Shown one piece after another: positions 5,021 to 22,412 of a DNA stretch of 34,106 bases (position 1 is the first letter of the stretch; the number at the start of each line of letters is the position of its first letter). The notes beneath the pieces are model-generated. The model was given only the letters and a program-made list of their open reading frames with translations, ran no database searches and had not been told where the DNA came from. This DNA is from an uncultured Lachnospiraceae bacterium (GTDB lineage Bacteria; Bacillota; Clostridia; Lachnospirales; Lachnospiraceae), in assembly GCA_902773435.1 (NCBI GenBank), contig CACYEN010000098.1, positions 1 through 34,106 of the forward strand, given 5' to 3'. The position numbers were made by a program, and so were the translations under genes.

Positions 5021-5129
5021 TCCCGCCCTTCCGGAGGCGGGATGCCGATATGCCGCCGCTCACCGTCCGGGCAGGGCCCGCCCCGCCGCCGGCACTTAAG
5101 GGGGCGTGCTGATTTTTTTCAATTCTAAA

Positions 5130-5158
5130 TTTACAAAATAGTTTAACTGTTATACAAT
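5130..5158 (+). promoter_or_regulatory. Promoter of the liv transporter operon
   Basis: TTTACA (5130-5135), a 17-base spacer and TACAAT (5153-5158) in an A/T-rich island within otherwise GC-rich DNA. The expected start is near 5165, about 155 bases ahead of livG, leaving a leader that holds the predicted attenuator. The stretch 4952-5320 carries no larger gene. Confidence 0.6.
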
Positions 5159-5165
5159 TTTCCCT

Positions 5166-5222
5166 GTGGAGTTTAGCGCGCACACATTCATTATTGCCGT
5201 GATTGCTGGCGGCATGCCTTAA
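5166..5222 (+). CDS. Putative Ile/Val-rich leader peptide of the liv operon
   Basis: An 18-codon frame starting with GTG and ending in TAA: residues 8-16 read FIIAVIAGG. Ile codons (ATT) fall at positions 9, 10 and 13 and a Val codon at 12, clustered as in ribosome-mediated attenuators of branched-chain amino acid genes. The Ile/Val codons lie in the left arm of the first leader hairpin and the stop codon lies in the right arm, the arrangement needed for attenuation. Weak points: no Shine-Dalgarno sequence precedes the GTG, and the predicted transcript start is within a few bases of it, so translation would have to be leaderless or begin from another promoter. Confidence 0.45.
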   Translation: MEFSAHTFIIAVIAGGMP

Positions 5223-5226
5223 TGAA
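5187..5226 (+). promoter_or_regulatory. Attenuator leader hairpin (regions 1 and 2)
   Basis: TTCATTA (5187-5193) pairs with TAATGAA (5220-5226) and TGCCG (5195-5199) with CGGCA (5210-5214), leaving a ten-base loop. The right arm also contains CATGCCTT (5213-5220), which can instead pair with GGGGTATG (5241-5248), the 5' arm of the terminator, using three G-U pairs. The two pairings exclude each other, as in a classical attenuator. Confidence 0.5.
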
Positions 5227-5237
5227 CGCGGACATAC

Positions 5238-5282
5238 AAAGGGGTATGCTGATTCCGTCCAGGGAAAACATGCCCCTTTTTT
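5238..5282 (+). terminator. Intrinsic terminator in the liv operon leader
   Basis: AAAGGGGTATG (5238-5248) pairs with CATGCCCCTTT (5269-5279) with one G-U pair and a 20-base loop, and the hairpin runs into six T (5277-5282). It ends only about 38 bases before the livG start, well inside the transcript from the promoter at 5130-5158, so it should act as an attenuator rather than as the end of an upstream gene, which is divergent. Confidence 0.75.
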
Positions 5283-5320
5283 GTATTTGAAGGAAAAAAG
5301 CAGATTGGAGAGATAGCGAA

Positions 5321-6094
5321 GTGTCGGTCTTACTGGAAGCGAAAAACTGCAGAAAGTCATTCAGGGGACTTCAGGCGGTGAAGGATTTCTCGGCTTCGAT
5401 CGAGGAGGGCGGGATCTACGGTCTTATCGGCACCAACGGCGCCGGGAAGACCACCGTCATCAACATGCTGTCCGGCGTGCTCGTCCCGACGGGCGGGCAG
5501 ATCATCTACGGCGGCACGGATATCACCGGATGGAAGCCCGACCGGGTCGCCAAGGCCGGCATTCTGAGGACATACCAGAACCTCCGGCTGTTCGGAAAGA
5601 TGACCGCCCTTGAAAATGTCGTGATCGGCGCCCAGATGCACCGCGGGTACAGCTTTCTCGACGGGCTGCTCCACACCGGCAGGTTCAGCGAGAACGAAAG
5701 TAAGTACTACGACCGGGCAAGGCTCATGCTGCGGGAGATGGAGATCGACTCCTACGAGAACGCCCGGGCGGACTCCCTCCCGTACGGCAGCCAGCGGAGG
5801 CTCGAGATCGCGAGGATTCTCGCCGCCGGTCCCAGGCTGATCCTGCTGGACGAGCCCGCCGCCGGCATGAATCCGCAGGAGAGCGCGGACCTCGTCGCCG
5901 CGATCAGGAGGACGCAGAAGGAATTCAACCTGACTGTGCTCCTGATCGAACACGACATGAAGGTCATCATGAGTCTCTGCGAATACATCTACGTTATGGC
6001 TTCCGGCGAAGTGATCGCGAGCGGAACCCCGGAGGAGATCCGGAGCGACCCGAAGGTCATCGCCGCTTATCTGGGGAGGCAGGCGAATGCTTGA
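5321..6094 (+). CDS. livG: Branched-chain amino acid-type ABC transporter ATP-binding protein LivG
   Basis: A 257-residue ATPase. Walker A is GTNGAGKTT (37-45), the Q-loop YQNLRLF follows, the signature is the LivG-like LPYGSQRRLEIAR, Walker B is ILLDEPAAGMN and the switch His is in LLIEHDM. The long insertion between Q-loop and signature is usual for LivG. It energises uptake of branched-chain or other hydrophobic amino acids, or in related systems amides and urea, through LivH/LivM. The start is GTG, with TTGGAG about ten bases upstream and no ATG nearby. It is the first gene after the leader terminator and overlaps livF by eight bases, implying translational coupling. Confidence 0.95.
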   Translation: MSVLLEAKNCRKSFRGLQAVKDFSASIEEGGIYGLIGTNGAGKTTVINMLSGVLVPTGGQIIYGGTDITGWKPDRVAKAGILRTYQNLRLFGKMTALENVVIGAQMHRGYSFLDGLLHTGRFSENESKYYDRARLMLREMEIDSYENARADSLPYGSQRRLEIARILAAGPRLILLDEPAAGMNPQESADLVAAIRRTQKEFNLTVLLIEHDMKVIMSLCEYIYVMASGEVIASGTPEEIRSDPKVIAAYLGRQANA

Positions 6095-6797
6095 GATAAA
6101 AGATCTTGTCGTCAGATACGGCGGAATCAGCGCGGTAAAGGGGATCTCGCTTGAGATCGCGGAGGGCGAGACCGTCGCCCTCATCGGCGCGAACGGAGCG
6201 GGTAAAAGCTCCATGCTGCACGCGGTGTCCGGCCTCATAAAGACGGCTTCCGGGAAGATTACATTTGACAGACATGACATCACGGGGATCGGCGCCGACA
6301 GAATCGTGAGCCTCGGCCTCGTCCAGGTCCCGGAGGGGAGGCAGATCTTCACCCGCCTCTCCGTCGACGAGAATCTCCGCATGGGCGCTTATGTCAACCG
6401 CGACAAAGCGGACATCGAGCGGAACCGGGCGCGGGTTCTCGATCTCTTTCCCATTCTGAAGGAGCGGGCGAAACAGTCTGCGGGAACGCTCTCCGGGGGC
6501 GAGCAGCAGATGCTCGCAATCGGGCGGGCGCTGATGAGCTCCCCGAAGATGCTGCTTCTCGACGAGCCGTCGATGGGGCTCTCCCCGATCATGACCGAGG
6601 AGGTCTTCGGCGTGCTCCGCGGCCTCAAGGACCAGGGCATCACCGTCTTCGTCATCGAACAGAACGCCTACGACGCGCTCGAGCTCGCGGACCGGGCCTA
6701 CATCATGGAGACCGGGACGATCACGCTCGAGGGAAAGAGCTCGGACCTCATCAGGGACGAGCGCGTGAAAGCGGCCTATCTCGGAGGTGACATATGA
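6087..6797 (+). CDS. livF: Branched-chain amino acid-type ABC transporter ATP-binding protein LivF
   Basis: A 236-residue ATPase and partner of LivG. Walker A is GANGAGKSS (34-42), the signature LSGGEQQMLAIGRAL, and Walker B LLLDEPSMGLSP. As is usual for LivF, the switch position reads VIEQN rather than having a His. PEGRQIFTRLSVDENL is a typical LivF Q-loop region. The start overlaps the end of livG and the last four bases (ATGA) overlap the livH start, so the transporter core is translated as a tightly coupled unit. Confidence 0.95.
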   Translation: MLEIKDLVVRYGGISAVKGISLEIAEGETVALIGANGAGKSSMLHAVSGLIKTASGKITFDRHDITGIGADRIVSLGLVQVPEGRQIFTRLSVDENLRMGAYVNRDKADIERNRARVLDLFPILKERAKQSAGTLSGGEQQMLAIGRALMSSPKMLLLDEPSMGLSPIMTEEVFGVLRGLKDQGITVFVIEQNAYDALELADRAYIMETGTITLEGKSSDLIRDERVKAAYLGGDI

Positions 6798-7693
6798 TTA
6801 ATTCCGCCTATTTCATGAGCATGCTGATCAGCGGCCTCAAGCTGGGCAGTATCTACGCGATCGTCGCGATCGGTTATTCCATCGTCTACGGCATCCTCCG
6901 CCTGATCAACTTCGCCCACGGCGACATCATGACCATCGGCGTCTACATCATCCTGATGCTGATGAATCAGGCCGGCGTGCCGATTCCGGCGGCGCTCCTT
7001 ATCTCCGTCGCGTTCAGCGTCGGCGTCGGCCTCCTGATCGAGCGTCTCGCCTACCGGCCGCTCCGCGACGCGTCGGAGGAGACGACCCTCATCTCCTCGC
7101 TCGCGGTGTCCGCGCTGCTCCAGAACATGCTTCAGATGGTCTTCTCCGCCCAGCGTCAGCCGTTCATGCTGCCCGAAGCGCTGAGGACGACGCATAAGAT
7201 CGGCATCGTCAATCTGTCGACGATCAACATCATCACATTTATCTCCACAGCGATCTTCCTCGTCATCCTTCACCTGGTCCTCACGAAGACCCGGATCGGC
7301 ACCGCCATGCGGGCCTGCTCGGAAAATCTCCGGGCGGCGAGACTCATGGGCGTGAACGTCAACCGCGTCGTCATGACCGCGTTCGCGATCGGCTCGGGAC
7401 TCGCGGTCATCGCAGGCTTCCTCCTCGCCGGGGAGTATAAGACAGTCTATCCGTCGCTCGGCTTCGTCCCCGGACTCAAGGCCTTCTGTGCCGCGGTCAT
7501 CGGGGGCATCGGTAGTCTCGGCGGCGCCGTGACCGGCGCGTTCATCATTGGCATCGCCGAGATGCTCTTCGCCGGCCTTGTCCCGACCACAATGACCGCC
7601 TACAGAGACGCGTTCGTGTTCCTTCTCATGGTGATCGTCCTGCTGTTCCGCCCGAACGGACTGTTCGGCGGCAGTGAGACGGCGAGAAGCTGA
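6794..7693 (+). CDS. livH: Branched-chain amino acid-type ABC transporter permease LivH
   Basis: A 299-residue integral membrane protein with about eight hydrophobic segments. The family hallmarks are visible: GSIYAIVAIGYSIVYGILRLINFAHGD near the start, LIERLAYRPLR, TRIGTAMRACSENLRAARLMGVN (the loop that contacts the ATPases), and the Gly-rich AAVIGGIGSLGGAVTG near the end, followed by LFRPNGLFG. It forms one half of the transport channel with LivM. It starts within the ATGA overlap with livF. Confidence 0.95.
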   Translation: MINSAYFMSMLISGLKLGSIYAIVAIGYSIVYGILRLINFAHGDIMTIGVYIILMLMNQAGVPIPAALLISVAFSVGVGLLIERLAYRPLRDASEETTLISSLAVSALLQNMLQMVFSAQRQPFMLPEALRTTHKIGIVNLSTINIITFISTAIFLVILHLVLTKTRIGTAMRACSENLRAARLMGVNVNRVVMTAFAIGSGLAVIAGFLLAGEYKTVYPSLGFVPGLKAFCAAVIGGIGSLGGAVTGAFIIGIAEMLFAGLVPTTMTAYRDAFVFLLMVIVLLFRPNGLFGGSETARS

Positions 7694-7719
7694 TTATTGC
7701 CGGGGAGGTGACATTTTTT

Positions 7720-8820
7720 ATGAATAAGACATACCGAATCACCGACTGCAGCCTGTTCCGGCTGATCGTATTCGTCATCGTGCCGCTGATCATCCTCATC
7801 CGCTGCGCGATGCAGCCGACAAGCTACATTACCGGAATCGTCATCACGATGGGCATCTACATCGTGCTCGCGGCGAGCCTCAACCTGATCAACGGGTTTT
7901 CGGGGATGTTCTCCATGGGCCACGCGGCGTTCATGGCGATCGGCGCCTACATCGCAGCGTTCTTCACGCTCGCGCCTCAGGTCAAGGAAAACATGACGCC
8001 CGGCCTTCCCGCCTGGCTCATCAACCTTCAGATCCCGCTCGCGCCCGCGCTCCTCATCGGCGGAGCCGCCGCCGCGCTCGTCGCGCTCATCGTCGGCTTC
8101 CCCGTGGTCCGCACGAAGGGCCATTACCTCTCGGTCGTGACGCTCGCGCTCATCGTCGTGGTCCGCGCGGTCATCGACAACCAGGGCGACATCACTCACG
8201 GTTCCCGCGGCCTCACCGGCCTGCCGGCGAAATCGACGATTCTCTCCGTCTACATCGCGGTCGTGGTCACGCTCTTCGTCCTCTACCGGATCACTCACTC
8301 CGATTACGGGCGGGGACTCATCGCGATGCGGGACGACCCGGTCGCGGCGCAGACCCTCGGGATCAACCTCGTCAAAAAGAAGATCTCCTGCTTCGCGATC
8401 AGCGCCTTCTTCGCGGGTATCGGCGGCGGCCTCTGGGGGCATTACCTGACGACGATCTCGGCGTCGAACTTCTACTTCTCGAAGAGCTTCGATATCGTGG
8501 AAATGAGCATCATCGGGGGCATGTTCTCCCTGAGCGGCTCGATTCCCGGCGCGATGTTCTACACGATCGTCCCCGAGTTTCTCGCGCCGCTCGAAAGCGG
8601 CTTCAATCTCGGGGGGATCAGGCTTCCGACCATGTTCGGTCTTTCCAATATCATAATGGCGGTTCTCCTGATCGTTCTGATCATTTTCAGGGGGCAGGGG
8701 ATCATGGGGACGAGCGAGATCATTCTCGACACCTGGTTTTCGAAGGACACGTATCTCGCCCCGTTCCGAAAGGAGGAATATCAGAGACTTGCCGGAGTCT
8801 TCCGGAAGAAGTCTTCCTGA
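7720..8820 (+). CDS. livM: Branched-chain amino acid-type ABC transporter permease LivM
   Basis: A 366-residue permease with about nine to ten membrane segments. Marks of LivM are AASLNLINGFSGMFSMGHAAFMAIGAYIAA, VVRTKGHYLSVVTLALI, TGLPAKS, the ATPase-contacting loop GRGLIAMRDDPVAAQTLGIN, and GGMFSLSGSIPGA. The start is ATG 7720, with GGGGAGG at 7702-7708; an earlier GTG at 7708 overlaps the ribosome site itself and is unlikely. Only 26 bases separate it from livH. The tail after the last membrane segment is a short, charged cytoplasmic extension of about 40 residues. Confidence 0.94.
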   Translation: MNKTYRITDCSLFRLIVFVIVPLIILIRCAMQPTSYITGIVITMGIYIVLAASLNLINGFSGMFSMGHAAFMAIGAYIAAFFTLAPQVKENMTPGLPAWLINLQIPLAPALLIGGAAAALVALIVGFPVVRTKGHYLSVVTLALIVVVRAVIDNQGDITHGSRGLTGLPAKSTILSVYIAVVVTLFVLYRITHSDYGRGLIAMRDDPVAAQTLGINLVKKKISCFAISAFFAGIGGGLWGHYLTTISASNFYFSKSFDIVEMSIIGGMFSLSGSIPGAMFYTIVPEFLAPLESGFNLGGIRLPTMFGLSNIIMAVLLIVLIIFRGQGIMGTSEIILDTWFSKDTYLAPFRKEEYQRLAGVFRKKSS

Positions 8821-8900
8821 TAGATCAGGGTTCGGGAAGCCGTCGGCGGACGGGTCCCCGGCCTAAACAATGCTTCAGTTGAGTAAAAGGAGGTAGTACA

Positions 8901-10061
8901 ATGAGAAAACACGCGTTAATGAGAAAAGCCGCCTGCGTTGCCCTGACCGCTGCCATGACGCTTGCCATGGCCGGGACAGCCGCGTTCGCTGACGAACCGA
9001 TCGTCGTCGGCGGCATCTTCAATATCACAGGCGATCAGTCATCGCTCGACGAGCCGACCCAGCAGGGCTTTGAACTCGCGATCGAAGAGATAAACGCCGC
9101 GGGTGGCGTAAACGGAAAGATGCTTGAAGCTGTCTATGACGACGGCAAGACGGACACCGCGGTCTGCGCGAGCAACGCCAAGAAGCAGATCAACAACGAC
9201 GGCGCGGTCGTTCTCGCCGGATTCTCCGACAGCGATTTCGCCTATGCCGCCGGCGCTGTCGCCCAGGAAGCGGGCGTGCCGTTCGTGTTCACGGGCGCCA
9301 CGACCCCTGATATCCCGTCGACAGTCGGCGACTGCGCGTTCCTCTGCGCGTTCGGCGACGACGTCTGCGCTCACGCCGGCGCTGACTACGCGGTCGAGGA
9401 GCTCGGCGCGAAGACGGCCTATGTCCTCACCGACAACTCCATGAGCTACACCACGAACCTCTCCGACTACTTCATCGAGCGGTTTGAGGAGCTCGGCGGA
9501 GAGATCGTCCTTCAGGACTACTTCGCGAGCGGCGACTATGACTACTCCGCCCAGATCGCCCGCTATCAGGCGCTCGGCGAAGAAGCCGGCATCCTCTTCA
9601 TGGCGACCGGCCCGGACGACGCCAGCACAGTCATCGAGCAGTACCGCTCCGCGGGCGTCACGGGACCGATGATCTCCGGCGACGGCTGGGATACGGATCT
9701 CTGGGGTGTCGCGGGTGATCTCGCAAACCAGGACGTCTATGTCTGCACGCATTTCTCATCCGACGACGACAGCGAAGCGGTCCAGGGCTTCCTCAGCGCC
9801 TATGAGGAGAAGTACGGCAAGGCTCCCGAGAACGCGTTCGCGGCGCTCGGATACGACACGGCTTACCTCATCGCCTCCGCGATCGAAGCGTGCGGCGACG
9901 ACGTGACTCCGGCCGCGATCCGCGACGCGCTTGAGAACACGCAGGACTTCCCGGGCATCACCGGAACGATCTCCTACTCCGCTGAGACGCACGTCCCGGA
10001 CAAAACTGTCGTGGTCTGCCAGGCGGAAGACGGCCTGCTGAAGTTCCGCAAGAACATCTGA
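8901..10061 (+). CDS. Branched-chain amino acid-type ABC transporter substrate-binding protein
   Basis: A 386-residue secreted binding protein of the LivJ/LivK type (Peripla_BP_6 fold). Residues 1-30 form a Sec signal peptide ending in AAFA. The mature part starts IVVGGIFNITGDQSS, then GFELAIEEINAAGGVNGK and VYDDGKTDTAVCASNAKKQI, which match the family; AGILFMATGPDD and ITGTISYSAETHVPDKTVVV near the end are also typical. No lipobox Cys follows the signal peptide, unusual for a Gram-positive binding protein, which is normally a lipoprotein. AAAGGAGG lies eight bases upstream of the start. Its ligand is a branched-chain or other small amino acid or amide; the creatininase and asparaginase downstream make an amide-type ligand possible. 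Confidence 0.93.
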   Translation: MRKHALMRKAACVALTAAMTLAMAGTAAFADEPIVVGGIFNITGDQSSLDEPTQQGFELAIEEINAAGGVNGKMLEAVYDDGKTDTAVCASNAKKQINNDGAVVLAGFSDSDFAYAAGAVAQEAGVPFVFTGATTPDIPSTVGDCAFLCAFGDDVCAHAGADYAVEELGAKTAYVLTDNSMSYTTNLSDYFIERFEELGGEIVLQDYFASGDYDYSAQIARYQALGEEAGILFMATGPDDASTVIEQYRSAGVTGPMISGDGWDTDLWGVAGDLANQDVYVCTHFSSDDDSEAVQGFLSAYEEKYGKAPENAFAALGYDTAYLIASAIEACGDDVTPAAIRDALENTQDFPGITGTISYSAETHVPDKTVVVCQAEDGLLKFRKNI

Positions 10062-10115
10062 TCCTTTTATGACCGGACGTGACCGCATCGCGGTCATCGG
10101 AGAAATACGACAACA

Positions 10116-10149
10116 GGGATTTCCGGGCGCGTGATGCCCCGGAAATCCC
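10116..10149 (+). other. Intergenic hairpin between binding protein and creatininase genes
   Basis: GGGATTTCCGGG (10116-10127) and CCCGGAAATCCC (10138-10149) are a perfect 12-base inverted repeat around a ten-base loop. No T-run follows, so it is more likely an mRNA-stabilising or processing stem that sets the high level of the binding-protein message apart from the downstream genes. Confidence 0.55.
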
Positions 10150-10172
10150 GCAAAAGAAAGAAGGAATCGGCT

Positions 10173-10934
10173 ATGGCTAACAATGAACTTCTGAAACTCA
10201 CCGCTCACCAGGTCAGGGAGAGAAAGTTTGACAAGGTGATCCTCGCCGTCGGATCCTGTGAGGCGCACGGCAGTCATCTCGCGGAAGGGACGGACACGCT
10301 CGTGTCCTACATGCTCTCCTGCAAAATCGCGGAGAAGGTGGACAACATGCTGGTGCTGCCGCCGATCACGGTCGGATACAGCGCCCACTATGACACGTTC
10401 CCGTTCACGCTGACCCTGAGCTACGACACCGTGACGGCCGTCATCTACGACATGATCGAGTCCGTCATCCGAAACGGCGTCAACCACATCTTCATCATGA
10501 ACGGACACGACGGCAACATCGCTCCGATCGAGATCGCGACGCGAAAGATCAAGGAGAAGTACCCCGAGGCCAGAATGGTTTCGCTCCCGGCGTGGTGGGT
10601 GACCGCGGGCGAGCTGCTTCCGCCTGACACCTTCGAGGTGTGGGACGGTCTCGGACACGCCGGCGAGGGCGAAAGTTCCATCGCCTACTATCTGTATCCG
10701 CAGTGGAACGAGCCGGACCAGGCCAAGGGCTGGGTTCCGGATATGCTTCCGAAGTACGTCGACGTCAAGTGGGATTTCGCTGAACTCACGGACTGTGCCG
10801 CCACCGGTGATCCGACGAAGGCAACTCCGGAGAAAGGCGAGAAGATGACCGAGGTTCTGGTCAACGCGTGCGTGGAGGCGATCAACGAGCTCGACGCCTG
10901 CGGATGGGATTACAGGACAAAGGGCATCCGTTAA
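10173..10934 (+). CDS. Creatininase family amidohydrolase
   Basis: A 253-residue protein of the creatininase superfamily, which hydrolyses cyclic or linear amides using a two-metal site. VGSCEAHGSHLAEGTDT (26-42) gives the likely ligands Glu30, His32 and Asp41; IMNGHDGN (108-115) gives His112, and GHAGEGESS (161-169) the last acidic motif. As I recall, true creatininase has a Glu two residues after the NGH His; here it is Gly, so creatinine hydrolysis is not implied and the subfamily is open (MftE and ArfB are relatives of other function). The start at ATG 10173 has AAGGA eight bases upstream; an earlier ATG at 10131 lies in the preceding hairpin region. It is probably read from the liv operon and ends at a terminator. 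Confidence 0.85.
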   Translation: MANNELLKLTAHQVRERKFDKVILAVGSCEAHGSHLAEGTDTLVSYMLSCKIAEKVDNMLVLPPITVGYSAHYDTFPFTLTLSYDTVTAVIYDMIESVIRNGVNHIFIMNGHDGNIAPIEIATRKIKEKYPEARMVSLPAWWVTAGELLPPDTFEVWDGLGHAGEGESSIAYYLYPQWNEPDQAKGWVPDMLPKYVDVKWDFAELTDCAATGDPTKATPEKGEKMTEVLVNACVEAINELDACGWDYRTKGIR

Positions 10935-10944
10935 CGACGCAATA

Positions 10945-10988
10945 AGAGGAGGCAGAGATCCGCGGAGGTATCTCTGTCTCCTCTTTTT
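10945..10988 (+). terminator. Terminator after the creatininase gene
   Basis: AGAGGAGGCAGAGAT (10945-10959) pairs with ATCTCTGTCTCCTCT (10970-10984), 15 pairs with one G-U, followed by TTTTT (10984-10988). It sits 50 bases before the asparaginase start, so asparaginase is expressed by read-through or by a promoter not recognised here. Confidence 0.85.
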
Positions 10989-11037
10989 AACGCAGCGCAT
11001 CTAAGCGGACGCAGACCATGAAATGAAGGAGGCTGCT

Positions 11038-12018
11038 ATGCCTGACAGACATCCGAAAGTAGTGATTTACACAACGGGCGGGACCATCCAGTGCTCGAAA
11101 GACGCGATCAGCGGGAAGGTCACCCCCGCGATGACCGGCTCCCAGATGCTCGAGCGGCTGACCGCGCTGCGCGAACACTTTGACATCGAGGTGCACGAGA
11201 TCTTTAACATGCCCGGCTCAGACCTCACCCTTCAGGACGGGCTCGCCCTGGCGAAATCTCTCCGCGAGACCGAGCTTCGGGACGATATCGACGGCATCGT
11301 CGTGCTCCAGGGGACCGACACGATGGACGAGATCCCCTACTTCATCAACGTGACCGTCGGATGCGCGAAGCCGATCGTCTTCACCGGTTCGATGAAGAGT
11401 TCCCGCGATCTCTACAGCGACGCCCTCGGAAATGTCTATGGCGCCGCAACCGTCGCCTCCGACCCCCACTCCGTCGGCAGAGGCGTGCTCGTCTATTTCA
11501 ACGAGACAATCTTCTCCGCGGACGACGTGAACAAGTACCACTCCAGCAGAATCGACGCCTTCCGTTCGCCGCTCGGCCCCCTCGGCAGCATCGTCGAGGA
11601 CAGGGTCCGCTACTACAGAAGCAACGTCCAGGGGCCGGTCTATCCTGCCGAAGACGTGGATATCCCGGTTCCGATCATGAAGTGCTATGCCGGCGTGAGC
11701 CGGGATATCTTCGACTACCTCGTCAGCTCGGGAAGCCGGGCAGTTGTGATCGAGGGATACGGCACAGGCAACATCCCTTACTATCTGTCGGATCCCGTGA
11801 GGGCCGCCGTGGAGAACGGCGTCATCGTCGTCGTCACGACGCGCTGCGTCGACGGCGAGAGCTACGCCTGTTACAATTACGTCGGAGGCGGAGCCCAGCT
11901 CGAGGAATTCGGCGTCATTCTGAGCGGGGAACTGAACGCGATCAAGAGCAGGATCCTGCTGATCGCGATGCTGTCGGTCGGAAAGACCGAAGAAGAGATC
12001 AGGGACGCTTTCCGCTGA
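11038..12018 (+). CDS. L-asparaginase (type I/II family)
   Basis: A 326-residue asparaginase that hydrolyses asparagine to aspartate and ammonia. TTGGTIQ (12-18) carries the nucleophile Thr, and VVLQGTDTMDEIPYF carries the second Thr-Asp pair; TGSMKSS gives the catalytic Lys region. GYGTGNIP and VTTRCVDGES in the C-terminal domain are also typical. There is no signal peptide, so it acts in the cytoplasm. The start is ATG 11038 because AAGGAGG (11026-11032) lies directly upstream; an ATG at 11023 precedes that ribosome site. With the transporter and creatininase upstream it suggests use of an imported amide or amino acid as nitrogen source. Confidence 0.93.
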   Translation: MPDRHPKVVIYTTGGTIQCSKDAISGKVTPAMTGSQMLERLTALREHFDIEVHEIFNMPGSDLTLQDGLALAKSLRETELRDDIDGIVVLQGTDTMDEIPYFINVTVGCAKPIVFTGSMKSSRDLYSDALGNVYGAATVASDPHSVGRGVLVYFNETIFSADDVNKYHSSRIDAFRSPLGPLGSIVEDRVRYYRSNVQGPVYPAEDVDIPVPIMKCYAGVSRDIFDYLVSSGSRAVVIEGYGTGNIPYYLSDPVRAAVENGVIVVVTTRCVDGESYACYNYVGGGAQLEEFGVILSGELNAIKSRILLIAMLSVGKTEEEIRDAFR

Positions 12019-15401: not shown

Positions 15402-18400
15402 TTATTTCGTTATCTTTGCGGTCTTATACGCGCTCCACGTGCTGAAGTACTTCTTGTCCGAGACGGTCCTGAAGCTCCTGACATAGACTTTGTAAGAGCT
15501 GCCTTTCTTCAGGCCTGTGATCTTCCTCGTCACGGTCGACCCGCTGCTGATTGTCACGGTCTTCTCCTCGTCTCCGAGCGCGTACTTCACCTGCCAGCCG
15601 TTCGCCTTCGCGTTCTTTCCCCACGTGACCGTCAGCTCACCCGCGGCGCTGTTCGACGCCGACGTGATCACCGGGCGGGACATGAAGTACGTGAATTTCT
15701 CCGTGGACAGAGTGCTCACATACGTCTTCCCCGACACGGTCTTGCGCGCGCGGATCTTGTACGCGTACTTTGTTCCGTCCTGCGTTCCCGCGCTGTCCGT
15801 ATACGAAGTCCCCTTCACCGCGGAAGCCGCCAGTTCCCCGCCGCGGTACACGTCGTACCCGTCCGCCCCTTCGATTGCCGTCCACGCGACCTTCGGACCG
15901 CCCGCCACATTGCCCACCTGGGAGATCACCGGGCGTGACAGGTACCAGGCCTGTACCGTTCTGGAGACCGTGCTCTTTGAGACCAGGCCGGACTCGGACT
16001 TATACGCGTAGATCTTGTAGGTATATCCGGTATTATTCTCCGCCTCGTTGTCCGTATAGTTGAGGCTCCCCGCAGAGACGGTTTTGATCCTCGTACTCCC
16101 GCGGTATACATAGTATCCGCTGGCGCCCTCGATCTTCTCCCACGCAATCTTCACGCCTGCCGAGGTGTTGGTCACGGACGAGATCTCCGGCCGCGAAAGG
16201 TAGCAGATCTCCTTCTCGTCGGAGGAACTGCTGACGCGCCCTCCGCCTTCCGGGCCGGCGTATGCCTCAATTATGTAGGTATATCTTGTGTTGTTCTCTG
16301 CTGTGGCGTCCGTATACGTGATCGCGGCCCCCGTCGCGCTCTGGCGGGCCAGCTCCCCGCCATCCCTGTAGACCGTATATCCCTCCGCTCCCGGCACATG
16401 CTCCCACTTCAGCCTGACACCGGCGGACACATTCAGGATCGTCCTGATCTCCGGTTTATCGAGCGTTATCTCCGGCAGCTTTTCGATCGGAACCTCAGAG
16501 CCCTCCCTGATGGCACCGCAGACCGCACAGTGGATCGACTTCACGCCCTCCTCCGTCCGGGTAGGTTCGCGGTCGACCGTGTAATTCGTCTCCCAGCTGT
16601 GCTCTGCCTTTTCGATCGTCTCCGTCTCAATTGTCGCGCAGGCGGAGCACCCGCGCTCCAGGGTTCCCTCAGCCTCACAGGTCGGCGCCTTGACCAGCTT
16701 CCACCTGCCAAAGCTGTGCCCCGTGGCCGGGATTTCCGTCTCTTCGACAGTTCCGCAGTCATCGCAGGTTCTCTCCCTGCGGCCGGGTTTCTCACAGTCC
16801 GGCGCCTCCTTCACGACCCAATCGCGGAAACTGTGGCCGGTGGCGGGAATCTCCTCGCTGATCACCTTGCCGCAGTGCTCACAGACCTGCTTCTTCCAGC
16901 CCGGCTGCGCGCAGGCCGGCTCATCGGTCACGGTCCATTCCCCGAAACTGTGGCCGAGAGCGGGGATCTCTTCTACCGAGTCTTCTCTGATCTCCCCGCA
17001 GACCGTGCAGTGGACCGACCTCTGTCCCGGCTCCGTACAGGCCGCCTCCCGGTCGACCGTTTTGTTCGCATCCCAGATGTGACCGTAAACCGGAAGATCC
17101 TCGACTTCGGTCTTTCCGCAGTCAGAACAGGTTCGCTCGATCCGTCCTTCCACCGTACATGTCGGCATTGAGATATAGTTCCAGGCTGAGAAGCTGTGGC
17201 CTTTGACGGGGAGTACCATCGCCCGGGTCAATCCACAGATGCGGCAGGTACTCTCCTGCAGGCCGGATCTCTCACAAGACGGCTCTTCCTTCACAACCCA
17301 GTCACCGTAATCATGTTCCAGGGCGGGGATCTCTTCCACTGTTTCTCCGTTGATTTCTCCGCAGACCGTGCAGTGGATCGACTTCACGCCGGGTCTCCCG
17401 CAGGATGTCTCCAGGTCAACCGTGTACTCCGTATCCCAGGTGTGGCCGTAAGCCGGGAGATCCTGAACTTCGACTGTTCCGCAGACGGTACAGGTTCTCT
17501 CCCGGACTCCGCTTTCCGTGCAGGCCGGCTCACTTAAAGTCGTCCAGTCGGCGTAGAAATGACCTCTCTCCGAGTAGGCCGCCTCCGATGGCGCCCCGCT
17601 GACCTCCCCGGCATCCGTATCCAGATACGCTTCTACGGTATATCCGTACTCCCCGCCGCACGTTCGGGCGTCAGTGTCCAGATGCGACGAGACCGTATGA
17701 TCCGTGATCGTCAGGACCACTTCGCTGCCGCGGAGGAGCCTGTACCCGGAAATGCCGGACACGGGACTCCATTCGACATACTCGCCGTCCGGCCGGGCTG
17801 TCACCGCAATGACCGTGACCTGAGGGACATAATACGTCGCGCGCTCATCCGAAGCCGACCTCACATACGCGAAATCTCCCGCGTCCACATAGGCGCTCAC
17901 CTGATACGTGTACATCGCGCCCGGCTCATCCGCTCCGGTATCTGTATAGCAGGTCACGGACTTATCGGAGACTGTCTGGATTTTCAGCCCGCTGCGGTAG
18001 ATGTAATATCCGCTGGCTGCGTCAACTTCCGTCCACGTCAGGCTTACTCCGGAGGGGACATTCTCCAGTGAGAGTATTGTCGGCCGTTCCGCCTCCGGGT
18101 TTTTCTCTATGCTGAAAAATGTCCTGACCGTTCCGCTGAAATTGCTCTCTTCCACCGCGGAAGCGATCACGGCACCTGTTCCGGGCGCGATATTGTTGCG
18201 ATAAGACAACCGGTAATCAGTGCCGGCCGTCAGCGTCTGCCCGCCAAAAACAACCGTCGGCTCAGGCTCTATCCCGGTTCCGTCCTCATAGTAGACTTCC
18301 TGGGGGAGAGTGATCGAAGCCACTGCAAGGTCCGCCTTCCCAATCCGGAAGGGCACCGACCGCTCACCGGCATAGTTCCCTGTACCGGTAATGACAGCCT

Positions 18401-21400
18401 CCGCGCTGCCGGCATTGATGTTGTTCCGATACTCTATGACATAGTCATCCTCTGTGATGACAGCCCCGGAGTCCGTCACCGTGACCGCGGCCTCCTTCGG
18501 CGTTCCGTCATAGACCAGCCCGGTCTCTTCCGCGGATACCTGTACTCCCTCCGCGCTGATGCTCCGCGGAGAGACTGACGGCACAACTCTGGCGCTTATC
18601 GCTGCCTGTCCGCCGTCTTCCGTAAATGTGACCTCGTAATCGCGTTCGGTGCCGACCTCCGGCCTTTCCGCTGCCGACGCATCCGTCACCGTCCAGACTC
18701 CGCTGACTGTCTCCCCGTCAAGAGTCACGGCGCCGCCCGTCAGCTGCATCTCCCCCGCTTCATCACCATAGGTGCCGGAGAGCAGCGGCAGGGACGTGAT
18801 CACATACCTGCTCCCCACGACGACTGTACAGGCTGCAGAGATATCCCGGACCGAGACCGTGATCACGGCAGTCCCCTCGCTGAGAGCGGTAACCGTTCCG
18901 TCAGCAGCGACCGCCGCCGCATCTTCCGCGTCACTCCTCCAGGAACAGACGACAGACACTGCGGCAGGTTCAGATACAAAGCCGGGGACAAGCACATATG
19001 TTTCTCCCGGCTTCAGCACGATTTCGGTCTCCGGCAGGCTGACTGAGATAATTTCCGTTAAAACGGGTATATGATTATCGAAACAGAGCGCGTCGGCAGC
19101 CGTACCGGGTACGCTGTCGACTTTCGCGAGTTCCGACCCGGCAAAGATGTTCGGGCTGATCGATGTCAGGCCGCTGTTCCCGGTTATGCCGACGGTCGTC
19201 AGTCCCCCGCAGTTCCCGAAGGCGTATTCACCGATTGACCGGACACTGTCAGGGACATCGACGGATGTGATGCCGCAGCCCGAGAAGGCATAGCTGCCGA
19301 TCGCCGTGATTCCCTCCGCGATCCCGATCTCTGTGATGCCCGGGGCGAAATCCTTCCAGGGCACATCGTCATCGGAGGCATAGCTGTCCATGTCCCCGGT
19401 GCCCTCTATAACAAGACGGTAATTGTCATTCCCGAGCGGGAGCAGGCTCCACTCCGTCTTTGATCCGCAGCTCCCGACAATGACAAATGGAATGCCGTTC
19501 TGTTCCGCATAGGCAGCCGCGTCAGATCCGGCCCTGCAATAGATCACCAGATCAGGGCAGTCTCTGAACACGTCCGCGCCAAACGCGGTCGAAGATCCTT
19601 CAATCCTTACAGCTGATAATCCCGTATTGTAAAAAGCCTCATCCCCGATACTCGTCACACTGTCCGGAATGGTCACACCTGAAAGGCCTGTGCAGTTTCT
19701 GAACGCATTTGCCCTTATGGCCGTTGTGCCGTCCGGGATGTCCACTTCCGTTACTGATTCGCCGTTCCTGATAATGCGGAGTTCATCGGCGTAACAGGCG
19801 GGGTCACTGGCGGAACCGCCGAAAACCGCGTTAAGCCAGGACTCAATTGAAGAAATGCTGACCACTCTGAGGCCGCTGCAGTTATAGAACGCGTAGTTTC
19901 CGAAGTTCACCGCGCCTTCGCCGATCGTCACGTCCGCCAGGCTGACGCATCCCCTGAATGCGTAGTATCCGATCGTCGTCACACTGTCCGGAATCTCTAT
20001 CTCCGTCAGCGCGCTGCAGCCGGAGAAAGCGTAGCTTCCGATCGACGTAATTCCTTCCGCGATATCCGCCTCCGTGATGCCGGCAGCATAGTCCTTCCAC
20101 GGCACACTGCTGCCGGACGTAAAGCTGTCCATACTGCCGCTTCCGGCAATCTCAAGGCGGTATTTGTCATTCTCAAGCGGGAAGAGGCTCCACGATGCGT
20201 CCGGGCCGCAGCTTCCGTCGATGACATAGGAGAAGCCGTTCTCTTTCGCGTAAGAGATCACGTTTGAGCCGGCCCTGCAGTAAAGGACGGGGTCGGCACA
20301 GTTCTTAAAGACATCCGCTCCGAAAGCAACGTCGGAACCCTCGATTCGCACGGCGGATACCCCGGTATTAAGAAACGCTTCATCCCCGATGCCGGTCACG
20401 CCGGCCGGGATTGTCACACTTGAGAGGCTGATGCAGTTTCTGAATGCACCCGCCCTGATACTTGTGATGCCCTGTGGAATAACGACGTCTGTTACCGGTT
20501 CGCCGTTCCTGATAATGCGGAGCTCATCCGCATAAGATGAAGGGTCGCTGCCGGAACTGGCAAAAGAAGCGCTGAGCCAGGCTTCAACCGAAGTGATATT
20601 GACGGTTTCAATGCCGCTGCAGTAATAAAATGCGCTGCCCCCGAAACTCGTTACGCTGTCACCGATCGTTACGCTCTTAAGGCCGCTGCAGTCATAGAAT
20701 GCATACTCCCCGATGCTCGTCACATTGTCCGGAATCGTTATCTCCGTCAGTCCGCTGCATCTGCTGAACGCGTGCGACCCGATGCTCGTCAGGCCGTCGG
20801 GAAGCACTATGCCCGTCAGGCCCCTGCAGCCGTTAAATGTATAATATCCGATATCGGTCACACCGTCGCCCAGCGTGACGCCCTTAAGGCCGCTGCAGCC
20901 GTCGAACGCGGAAGATCCGATACTTGTCACGTTATCAGGGATCGTCACTTCCGTCAGGTTTTCGCAGCCGCTGAACGCATAAGCCCCTATGTCTGTCACG
21001 CTGTCCGGGATCGTGACGCCCGAGAGGCTTTTACAGTTTCTGAATGCATATGCCCTGACGCTTGTGAGACCCTCCGGAATCTCAACCTCCGATATCATCG
21101 AACCGTCCCGGATTATACAAAGTTCACCTGTGAAATAACCATAGAGAGGATTGCTGTAAGACGTATCGTCAAACTCAGCGGAAAGCCAGGACTCAGCTGA
21201 AGAGATATTGACTGTCGCCAGGCTGCCGCACCCATAAAAAGCATATTCGCCGTAGTGCCTTACGCCGGCCCCGATCGTCAGGCTTTTCAGTCCCCGGCAC
21301 TCATAAAAAGTCCGATTTTCAATGCTTGTCACCCCGTCCGGGATTTCTATCCCCGTCAGGCTGCTGCAGTTGCTGAACGCATAAGACCCGACACTCGTCA

Positions 21401-22412
21401 CGCCCGCCGGGAGCGATATATCCATCAGGCTGCCGCAGTAGCTGAACGCGTCACTCCCGATGCTCGTCACGCCTGCCGGGAGCGCCACATCCCTCAGGCT
21501 GCCGCAGTGGGTAAATGTTCTCTCCCTGATGCTCGTCACACCGTCCGGGATCGTCACGCCTGTGAGACTGCCGCAGTTGCTGAACGCACCTGTCCCGATG
21601 CTCGCCACACTGGCAGGGATGACCACATCCGCCAGCTCGCTGCAGAAGATAAACGCATAGTTCCCTATACTCGTTACGCCGGCCGGAATTGTCACACCCG
21701 TCAGGCTGCTGCAGTATGCAAAAGCATTATTTCCGATGCTCGTTACACCATTCTCCAGTTCCACTGTGGTGATATCACTTCTGTAGCTGTACCACGGCAT
21801 ATTCCCCGTTGAATAATCTGCCATCGGCCCGGTTCCCCCGATCACGAGCCTGTAGGTCGTACCTGTGACGCTGTAAAGACTCCAGGTCACATTATCTCCG
21901 CAGGTGCCGGCTGCATAGGGAGTATCTCCGGCGGTCTCCTCCGCCTCAAGGGATTCCTCTAAGTCCTCCGCCGGGTATCCGGCTTCAAATGCCGCTTCTC
22001 CGGCCAGCTCCCGGTCTTCCTGCCACACGGATTCCTCATCTTCCGGCATCTCCACAGGTTCTTGCGCGGCGGAACCCGGAGCCTCTCCTGAAGCGGGCGT
22101 CTCCTCTTCAACCGTCTCTTCTGATGCCGCTTCGAAGATATCTTCGGAGGGCTCCTCAAAGAACTCCCCCGATAGAGGGAACCCGTCCTCTTCCTCCTCG
22201 AAGAAAAGGTCCGCTTCGTCGGTTTCGGGGATGAATCCCCCATCTTCATCTTCAGGGAACAGTTCTTCTTCGTCCCCAAAGATCACATCCTCTTCAAACA
22301 GGGTCTCTTCGTATTCTTCCGCACTGAAGAAAGCGTCTTCCGCGCCTGCGGGAGACACTGAGGCCAGGCACAGGGCGATCACGGTCACGATCGAAATCAG
22401 TCCCTTCTTCAT
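15402..22412 (-). CDS. Giant secreted BspA-like LRR surface protein with Ig/MBG/FN3-like modules and CxxC repeats
   Basis: A 2,336-residue protein, the largest in the window. Order of parts: signal peptide 1-24 (cleavage near AGA); a Glu-rich acidic segment 25-165; a CGDNVTWSL-type cap near 170; about 27 BspA/LRR_5 repeats of some 23 residues (215-1110), interrupted by two further caps near 731 and 981; a Big_2-like Ig domain about 1120-1200; two MBG-like modules about 1205-1440; two fibronectin-like modules 1445-1615; nine CxxC repeats 1618-1975; and four fibronectin-like modules to the end. No LPXTG signal or C-terminal membrane anchor is present. It should be exported by Sec and bind hosts, plants or other cells, an inference from BspA-family adhesins. 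It has its own promoter at 22456-22484 and a GGGGGTG ribosome site. Confidence 0.9.
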   Translation of the reverse strand: MKKGLISIVTVIALCLASVSPAGAEDAFFSAEEYEETLFEEDVIFGDEEELFPEDEDGGFIPETDEADLFFEEEEDGFPLSGEFFEEPSEDIFEAASEETVEEETPASGEAPGSAAQEPVEMPEDEESVWQEDRELAGEAAFEAGYPAEDLEESLEAEETAGDTPYAAGTCGDNVTWSLYSVTGTTYRLVIGGTGPMADYSTGNMPWYSYRSDITTVELENGVTSIGNNAFAYCSSLTGVTIPAGVTSIGNYAFIFCSELADVVIPASVASIGTGAFSNCGSLTGVTIPDGVTSIRERTFTHCGSLRDVALPAGVTSIGSDAFSYCGSLMDISLPAGVTSVGSYAFSNCSSLTGIEIPDGVTSIENRTFYECRGLKSLTIGAGVRHYGEYAFYGCGSLATVNISSAESWLSAEFDDTSYSNPLYGYFTGELCIIRDGSMISEVEIPEGLTSVRAYAFRNCKSLSGVTIPDSVTDIGAYAFSGCENLTEVTIPDNVTSIGSSAFDGCSGLKGVTLGDGVTDIGYYTFNGCRGLTGIVLPDGLTSIGSHAFSRCSGLTEITIPDNVTSIGEYAFYDCSGLKSVTIGDSVTSFGGSAFYYCSGIETVNITSVEAWLSASFASSGSDPSSYADELRIIRNGEPVTDVVIPQGITSIRAGAFRNCISLSSVTIPAGVTGIGDEAFLNTGVSAVRIEGSDVAFGADVFKNCADPVLYCRAGSNVISYAKENGFSYVIDGSCGPDASWSLFPLENDKYRLEIAGSGSMDSFTSGSSVPWKDYAAGITEADIAEGITSIGSYAFSGCSALTEIEIPDSVTTIGYYAFRGCVSLADVTIGEGAVNFGNYAFYNCSGLRVVSISSIESWLNAVFGGSASDPACYADELRIIRNGESVTEVDIPDGTTAIRANAFRNCTGLSGVTIPDSVTSIGDEAFYNTGLSAVRIEGSSTAFGADVFRDCPDLVIYCRAGSDAAAYAEQNGIPFVIVGSCGSKTEWSLLPLGNDNYRLVIEGTGDMDSYASDDDVPWKDFAPGITEIGIAEGITAIGSYAFSGCGITSVDVPDSVRSIGEYAFGNCGGLTTVGITGNSGLTSISPNIFAGSELAKVDSVPGTAADALCFDNHIPVLTEIISVSLPETEIVLKPGETYVLVPGFVSEPAAVSVVCSWRSDAEDAAAVAADGTVTALSEGTAVITVSVRDISAACTVVVGSRYVITSLPLLSGTYGDEAGEMQLTGGAVTLDGETVSGVWTVTDASAAERPEVGTERDYEVTFTEDGGQAAISARVVPSVSPRSISAEGVQVSAEETGLVYDGTPKEAAVTVTDSGAVITEDDYVIEYRNNINAGSAEAVITGTGNYAGERSVPFRIGKADLAVASITLPQEVYYEDGTGIEPEPTVVFGGQTLTAGTDYRLSYRNNIAPGTGAVIASAVEESNFSGTVRTFFSIEKNPEAERPTILSLENVPSGVSLTWTEVDAASGYYIYRSGLKIQTVSDKSVTCYTDTGADEPGAMYTYQVSAYVDAGDFAYVRSASDERATYYVPQVTVIAVTARPDGEYVEWSPVSGISGYRLLRGSEVVLTITDHTVSSHLDTDARTCGGEYGYTVEAYLDTDAGEVSGAPSEAAYSERGHFYADWTTLSEPACTESGVRERTCTVCGTVEVQDLPAYGHTWDTEYTVDLETSCGRPGVKSIHCTVCGEINGETVEEIPALEHDYGDWVVKEEPSCERSGLQESTCRICGLTRAMVLPVKGHSFSAWNYISMPTCTVEGRIERTCSDCGKTEVEDLPVYGHIWDANKTVDREAACTEPGQRSVHCTVCGEIREDSVEEIPALGHSFGEWTVTDEPACAQPGWKKQVCEHCGKVISEEIPATGHSFRDWVVKEAPDCEKPGRRERTCDDCGTVEETEIPATGHSFGRWKLVKAPTCEAEGTLERGCSACATIETETIEKAEHSWETNYTVDREPTRTEEGVKSIHCAVCGAIREGSEVPIEKLPEITLDKPEIRTILNVSAGVRLKWEHVPGAEGYTVYRDGGELARQSATGAAITYTDATAENNTRYTYIIEAYAGPEGGGRVSSSSDEKEICYLSRPEISSVTNTSAGVKIAWEKIEGASGYYVYRGSTRIKTVSAGSLNYTDNEAENNTGYTYKIYAYKSESGLVSKSTVSRTVQAWYLSRPVISQVGNVAGGPKVAWTAIEGADGYDVYRGGELAASAVKGTSYTDSAGTQDGTKYAYKIRARKTVSGKTYVSTLSTEKFTYFMSRPVITSASNSAAGELTVTWGKNAKANGWQVKYALGDEEKTVTISSGSTVTRKITGLKKGSSYKVYVRSFRTVSDKKYFSTWSAYKTAKITK
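16490..17561 (-). repeat. Nine CxxC 'GHSF' repeats within the giant protein gene
   Basis: Coding repeats of about 35-45 codons. Each unit follows the plan: upstream Cys in EPxC, G, then a CxxCG knuckle (CTVCG, CRICG, CSDCG, CEHCG, CDDCG and others), a short acidic stretch, then PAxGHSFxxW. One upstream Cys, the CxxC pair and the His could form a metal site. Two sub-types alternate: one with GHxWDxxxTVD and IHCTVCG, one with GHSFxxW. The last units (CSACA, CAVCG) are more divergent. Confidence 0.8.
19085..21770 (-). repeat. BspA-like leucine-rich repeat array within the giant protein gene
   Basis: About 27 coding repeats of the form SLTxVTIPDxVTSIGxYAFxxCS. A longer module with WLSAxF...ADELRIIRNG...AFRNC occurs three times, and the cap VRIEGSxxAFGADVF with YCRAGS occurs twice, which shows that whole blocks of several hundred bases were duplicated, not just single repeats. 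Confidence 0.85.

Follow-up and report, generated by a model that had tools for sequence, protein, structure and literature searches.

A terminator leader with an overlapping hexaloop hairpin as a candidate attenuator of a liv-type transporter operon in an uncultured Lachnospiraceae bacterium

How does transcription enter an operon that lies behind an intrinsic terminator? The question is raised by a liv-type transporter operon of an uncultured Lachnospiraceae bacterium (assembly GCA_902773435.1, contig CACYEN010000098.1), of which positions 1-34,106 of the forward strand were analysed (34,106 nt, hereafter the window). A first-pass annotation had read its leader as a ribosome-mediated attenuator, and the anatomy that it described was recovered where it had been placed: the 18-codon Ile/Val frame, the pairings 1:2, 2:3 and 3:4, the six-T terminator, the stop codon in region 2 and the Ile codons in region 1. 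Of the wider claim, what stood is that a predicted promoter and the operon are separated by a terminator leader, which is kept in a genus-mate, whereas its control by a ribosome fared worse in that comparison.

The sigma-70-type site given in Table 1 is the sole promoter-like site that a consensus scan returned between 4000 and 7000, with 0.8 expected by chance over those 3 kb. From its spacing, transcripts are expected to start near 5165, so that the GTG with which the short frame opens would fall at +1 or +2. Since the T run ends 38 bases 5' of livG, transcripts from this promoter must cross the terminator, and a further promoter downstream of it is unlikely in so short a space. The frame sits upstream of the terminator, in a leader that can adopt three mutually exclusive pairings. 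Hairpin 1:2 counts 13 pairs when the loop-side ones are included (TTCATTA/TAATGAA and TGCCGT/GCGGCA). In 2:3, the core CATGCCTT (5213-5220) can pair with GGGGTATG (5241-5248) and be extended to 10 pairs, while in 3:4 the same GGGGTATG pairs with CATGCCCC (5269-5276) ahead of T at 5277-5282. Rfam covariance models gave 0 matches over the window at gathering score, T-box included, in agreement with the earlier remark that no T-box consensus is present. A permissive search of 5100-5340 (E up to 10) returned a single match, to a miRNA model at E 4.5, and permissive searches of two leaders gave no usable match. We also observed that the stop of the short frame overlaps (TAATG) a second frame without ribosome site, MNADIQRGMLIPSRENMPLFCI* (5220-5288), whose ADIQ-GM is readable in one frame of the genus-mate too.

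Table 1. Predicted features of the leader and operon, in window positions, and the ANTAR protein of the same genome, in positions of its own locus
Feature	Coordinates	Strand	Basis or remarks
Predicted sigma-70-type promoter, TTTACA-17-TACAAT	5130..5158	+	Consensus scan, 10/12 matches
18-codon GTG frame, VEFSAHTFIIAVIAGGMP*, with FIIAVIAGG	5166..5222	+	Lacks a ribosome site; opens on or next to the predicted +1
Hairpin 1:2	5187..5226	+	Region 1 (5187-5199) with 5210-5226; -11.8 kcal/mol
Alternative pairing 2:3	5211..5250	+	10 pairs including G-U; -12.0 kcal/mol
Hexaloop hairpin, CATAC-AAAGGG-GTATG, A1 and G4 in loop	5233..5248	+	-3.8 kcal/mol; exclusive with the terminator
Intrinsic terminator	5238..5282	+	Stem 5238-5248/5269-5279, T run 5277-5282 (six T); -20.3 kcal/mol
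LivG-like ATPase, encoded first in the operon	5321..6094	+	Below curated cut-off
LivF-, LivH- and LivM-like genes	6087..8820	+	Below curated cut-offs
HAAT/liv-type substrate-binding protein (Peripla_BP_6)	8901..10061	+	Family and structure matches
Creatininase-family amidohydrolase	10131..10934	+	Family matches
Asparaginase-family protein	11023..12018	+	Family matches
ANTAR protein of the window's genome	L060:2358-2918		186 aa, ANTAR E 5.3e-18; adjoins glutamine synthetase

The operon runs in the order livG-F-H-M-like genes, Peripla_BP_6 binding protein, creatininase-family enzyme and asparaginase-family protein (5321-12018). The genes are thus of the liv/HAAT type, as first proposed, but the ligand is less clear. 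The binding protein scores 86.6 bits on the NCBI branched-chain model, for which the cut-off is 477 bits, and all transporter subunits stay below the NCBIfam cut-offs for branched-chain amino acids or urea, such models being strict. On the other hand, the solved structures most closely related to the binding protein, 4gnr (E 5.9e-41) and 3td9, are both named branched-chain amino acid proteins, with AmiC (1pea) as a distant solved relative (1.6e-7). The operon may carry branched-chain amino acids, to go by the names of 4gnr and 3td9, while the curated cut-offs and the linkage to creatininase- and asparaginase-family genes do not point that way, and we leave the ligand undecided. The livGFHM genes, the binding protein and the creatininase gene are consecutive in seven relatives (L032, L034, L042, L043, L058, L059 and L074), the last gene being cut by the contig end in L042; L033 holds the operon from livF on, and creatininase is absent from the stretch fetched for L044. 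Asparaginase-family genes lie nearby in L032, L033, L034, L043 and L074. The transporter-creatininase unit also recurs within the family, where several genera have it, and in one genus (G675) that belongs to a different family, and our literature search found no paper joining the creatininase family, a branched-chain transporter and an asparaginase. Elsewhere in the window, the minus strand at 15402-22412 holds a 2336-residue repeat-rich frame with the look, by eye only, of a surface protein.

Several sets of genomes were screened for orthologs. Two loci were obtained from genome contigs, and 61 relatives were likewise searched. Among 42 genomes of the genus, 3 were retained at E up to 1e-60; 4 were retained among 397 genomes of the family (1e-80) and 4 among 392 of the order (1e-70), both sets being samples of larger groups and all three counts including the genome itself. 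The relatives of two other genomes, 144 of G217 and 245 of G359, gave 4 and 2, centre included, and viral contigs gave 0. L032 and G065 were counted as one genome, and the contig of L033 ends before the leader. In the eight relatives with readable sequence 5' of livG, a terminator is found there in L032, L043, L058 and L059. A terminator search read by eye gave no strong terminator between the promoter region and livG in L034, L042, L074 and L044: in L034 and L042 the hairpins are placed level with the promoter or ahead of it, L044 has a weak one within the upstream gene, and the search gave none for L074. The terminator leader is hence missing in 4/9 operon copies when the window is counted (4/8 relatives). 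The terminator of L043, L059 and L058 (genus g177) at first resembled a second hexaloop case; since that of L058 follows a gntR/FCD gene and L043 and L059 are nearly identical, it adds at most one further lineage. This regulator gene (L058 269-910) lies immediately 5' of the orthologous operon (G471). A narK match in L043 (E 0.089, 20.2 bits against a gathering score of 43.2) was not taken as evidence.

The genus-mate L032, whose binding protein is 90% identical, provides the only homologous leader (n = 1). Over ungapped columns, the two leaders are identical at 59/106 positions, that is 20/46 upstream of the hairpin block, 16/18 within it and 23/42 downstream. The 18-base block GACATACAAAGGGGTATG was picked after the fact, and at the overall identity such agreement within it has a probability of 0.0014. 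It opens with eight bases that lie largely outside the terminator core and agree at 8/8. The predicted hexaloop hairpin keeps 5/5 pairs around the loop AAGGAG, which differs from AAAGGG solely at positions 3 and 5 (CATAC-AARGRG-GTATG across both leaders), and the terminator with which it overlaps keeps 9/11, one of them compensatory (G-C to A-U). By comparison, 1:2 keeps 7/13 pairs, with gaps accounting for two of those lost, and 2:3 keeps 7/10 in a weak duplex of -4.4 kcal/mol. The covariation check proposed in the first-pass annotation for its three pairings thus speaks for the terminator and against 1:2 and 2:3 in this one relative, although the conservation rests on two sequences and 7/10 is not far from 9/11. 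Moreover, the stem folded in the window continues beyond the T run and involves bases from the hexaloop's 5' arm, so part of the conservation of that arm may belong to the terminator. When the best upstream pairing to the terminator arm of L032 was sought with the hairpin arm excluded, 1651/2000 shuffles did equally well; with it included, 226/2000 did. An Ile/Val frame that stops ahead of or within the terminator is also lacking in L032, whose listed frames end at 6404 or later, downstream of it; conservation of the frame in relatives was the test by which the first-pass annotation had said that its proposal could fall. In the main terminator of L032 (-17.9 kcal/mol), one A precedes the T run, and a strict terminator search consequently returns a different hairpin. 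A further structure, TTGTATG-CTGA-CATACAA (L032 6303-6330), overlaps the hexaloop hairpin there, and these two exclusive pairings of CATAC could compete.

Chance controls give modest support to the leader elements, which were chosen after the fact. Four Ile/Val in five codons occurred in 6/5000 dinucleotide shuffles, four in six codons in 26/5000 and four Ile/Val/Leu in five codons in 105/5000, while a 4-of-5 run from any of nine residue classes occurred in 46/1000. A 2:3 duplex of equal strength was found in 50/2000 shuffles (57/2000 under slightly different limits). An A1/G4 hexaloop hairpin with five pairs arose anywhere in 220/5000 shuffles of 5165-5250, and in 113/5000 when the terminator arm was fixed and required. 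Roughly, 2:3 and the hexaloop are each expected at about 2% by chance and the Ile/Val run alone is rarer, before allowing for after-the-fact choice. The whole leader (5165-5290) folds with a z of -1.63 (14/200 shuffles equal), and once the terminator is left out (5165-5245) its fold shows no advantage over shuffles (z +0.87, 164/200 equal). As equilibrium values for each transcript end rather than kinetics, the folding probabilities of transcripts ending at 5250-5265 are 0.59-0.70 for the hexaloop, 0.26-0.37 for 2:3 and about 0.5-0.7 for 1:2; in a transcript reaching 5285, the terminator pair has risen to 1.0, leaving 0 for both 2:3 and the hexaloop. The hexaloop is therefore the likeliest partner of the terminator arm until the terminator has been transcribed.

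These observations can be accommodated in several ways. In the proposal of the first-pass annotation, a ribosome stalled at the Ile/Val codons of a leaderless GTG frame would free region 2 for region 3 and prevent termination. The missing ribosome site, which had been given as its weak point and which we confirm, is not fatal, since with the predicted start the GTG falls at +1/+2, an arrangement like that of the leaderless attenuator of ilvBNC in Corynebacterium glutamicum. There, the start codon of the leader peptide MTIIRLVVVTARRLP is reported to lie a single base from +1, and its alteration to cut expression by 80% (Morbach et al. 2000, as cited in PMC11857589). The TrpL transcript of S. 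meliloti likewise begins with ATG (PMC7298713). The C. glutamicum leader resembles that of the window by a frame at the transcript start without ribosome site, branched-chain codons and alternative terminator/antiterminator hairpins. It differs, as described in PMC11857589, by an ATG, a regulatory region conserved across species and mutants that were tested, while the leader of the window has a GTG, a leaderless start that is predicted and a frame missing from the sole homologous leader. Among firmicutes, a leader-peptide attenuator for branched-chain genes has been reported in Staphylococcus aureus (PMC5794164); its ilv-leu peptide is alike in being an Ile-containing short frame 5' of a terminator, but the report gives it alone a putative ribosome site 9 bases 5' of the start, codons conserved across staphylococci and isolated mutants. 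The rarity of the Ile/Val run and of the 2:3 duplex among shuffles, the fit of stop and Ile codons to regions 2 and 1, and the branched-chain names of the solved relatives of the binding protein all favour such a mechanism. It is weakened by the lack of the frame in L032 and by a 2:3 pairing that is there no better than shuffles, as well as by the GTG start, the operon copies without terminator leader and residue-class runs that are not rare. Ribosome control would then have to act through a switch private to the species, and we regard it as possible but doubtful. It appears improbable that both mechanisms are combined, i.e., that a recently gained leaderless GTG leader-peptide attenuator, with a ribosome stalled at the 5' end, was set atop an older protein-bound hexaloop antiterminator.

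On the opposite side, the terminator could be a plain one that damps or insulates transcription into the operon, with the hairpin and the frame being incidental. Half of the readable relatives manage without it, in L058 it simply follows the gntR/FCD gene, and both the chance levels of the hexaloop and 2:3 and the shuffle-like folding of the rest of the leader are what incidental elements would give. The predicted promoter that precedes the terminator and the eight identical bases mostly outside its core in L032 argue against this, and we hold the plain terminator to be unlikely. A more specific proposal would be that termination is prevented, upon a nitrogen signal, by an ANTAR regulator whose gene adjoins that of glutamine synthetase and which binds the hexaloop, as in dual-hexaloop antiterminators of the EutV/NasR/AmiR type (PMC3369931). 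Loop positions A1 and G4, reported as important in that work, are present in AAAGGG (window), AAGGAG (L032) and AAAGGC (L043, L058 and L059); a P2-type hexaloop overlaps the 5' arm of the terminator in the leader of the window, and its A-U and C-G closing pairs agree with the description of eutP P1. The ANTAR protein is found in 8/8 genomes searched and adjoins glutamine synthetase in 4/5 loci tested (L060 of the window's own genome, G000, then L062, L067 and L068; the protein tested in L065 is a CTP synthase), and the targets listed in PMC3369931 are mostly nitrogen genes. However, those targets are described with two hairpins. No P1 hexaloop lies a short linker upstream in 5150-5330 besides P2, and the leader of the window has no second A1/G4 hexaloop hairpin of at least 3 pairs. 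The second hairpin of L032, about 48 bases upstream and over the -10 region, is too far. The pair in L043 is separated by a 5-base linker; its second stem, however, contains A-U pairs alone, lies inside the terminator and is not kept in L058. Together with one in L062, this pair was the only match of a dual-hexaloop and T-run scan of 12 loci. A looser dual-hexaloop scan lists four pairs in L066, a locus with eut-like genes by our own reading. No regulon signal emerged over 42 genomes either, with 18 matches (two shifted duplicates included) against 37 for the reversed control, for a blunt pattern (ACAANGRRGT with six T nearby) that misses the L032 site with its five T. The dual motif with T run was present upstream of ammonium transporters in 0/21 loci scanned, out of 30 fetched (the shuffled control averaged 0.2); these loci do not include G000 and G065, where no transporter was matched. 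No ANTAR RNA target was found in the genome of the window, and a literature search on ANTAR with glutamine synthetase in Clostridium gave nothing of use among the matches listed. The hairpin resembles half an ANTAR target only, and we do not class the leader as one; ANTAR control is accordingly rated very improbable.

The leader is likely a terminator leader of an ordinary kind before a transporter operon. The reading that we prefer, with a rough probability of 0.38 and thus tentatively, is a transcription-attenuation leader in which a small hexaloop antiterminator, held by some factor, makes use of the terminator's 5' arm. RNA polymerase would start near 5165 and stop by default at the terminator, before livG; when the hexaloop is held, the terminator could not form and the operon would be read. 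Being far less stable by itself than the terminator, the hexaloop would need a partner to hold it, of which an RNA-binding regulator is the simplest; the signal may perhaps be nitrogen status. We infer this chain of events, from promoter and start to default termination, factor and signal, whereas the terminator, the hexaloop, their overlap and their retention in one genus-mate are seen in the sequences. The better conservation in L032 of the hexaloop and the terminator than of 1:2 and 2:3 suggests this shared-arm attenuator, under which the Ile/Val frame would be fortuitous or peculiar to the species. Weighing against it are the shuffles that yield a hexaloop by chance or match the L032 pairing with the hairpin arm included, and the four relatives without a strong terminator 5' of livG.

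To conclude, this leader offers a modest, testable case. If the terminator is regulated, it would provide a route of control for a transporter operon that has creatininase-family and asparaginase genes beside it. Alternatively, if the ribosome version were true, leaderless attenuation as reported for ilvBNC of C. glutamicum would extend to the Lachnospiraceae.
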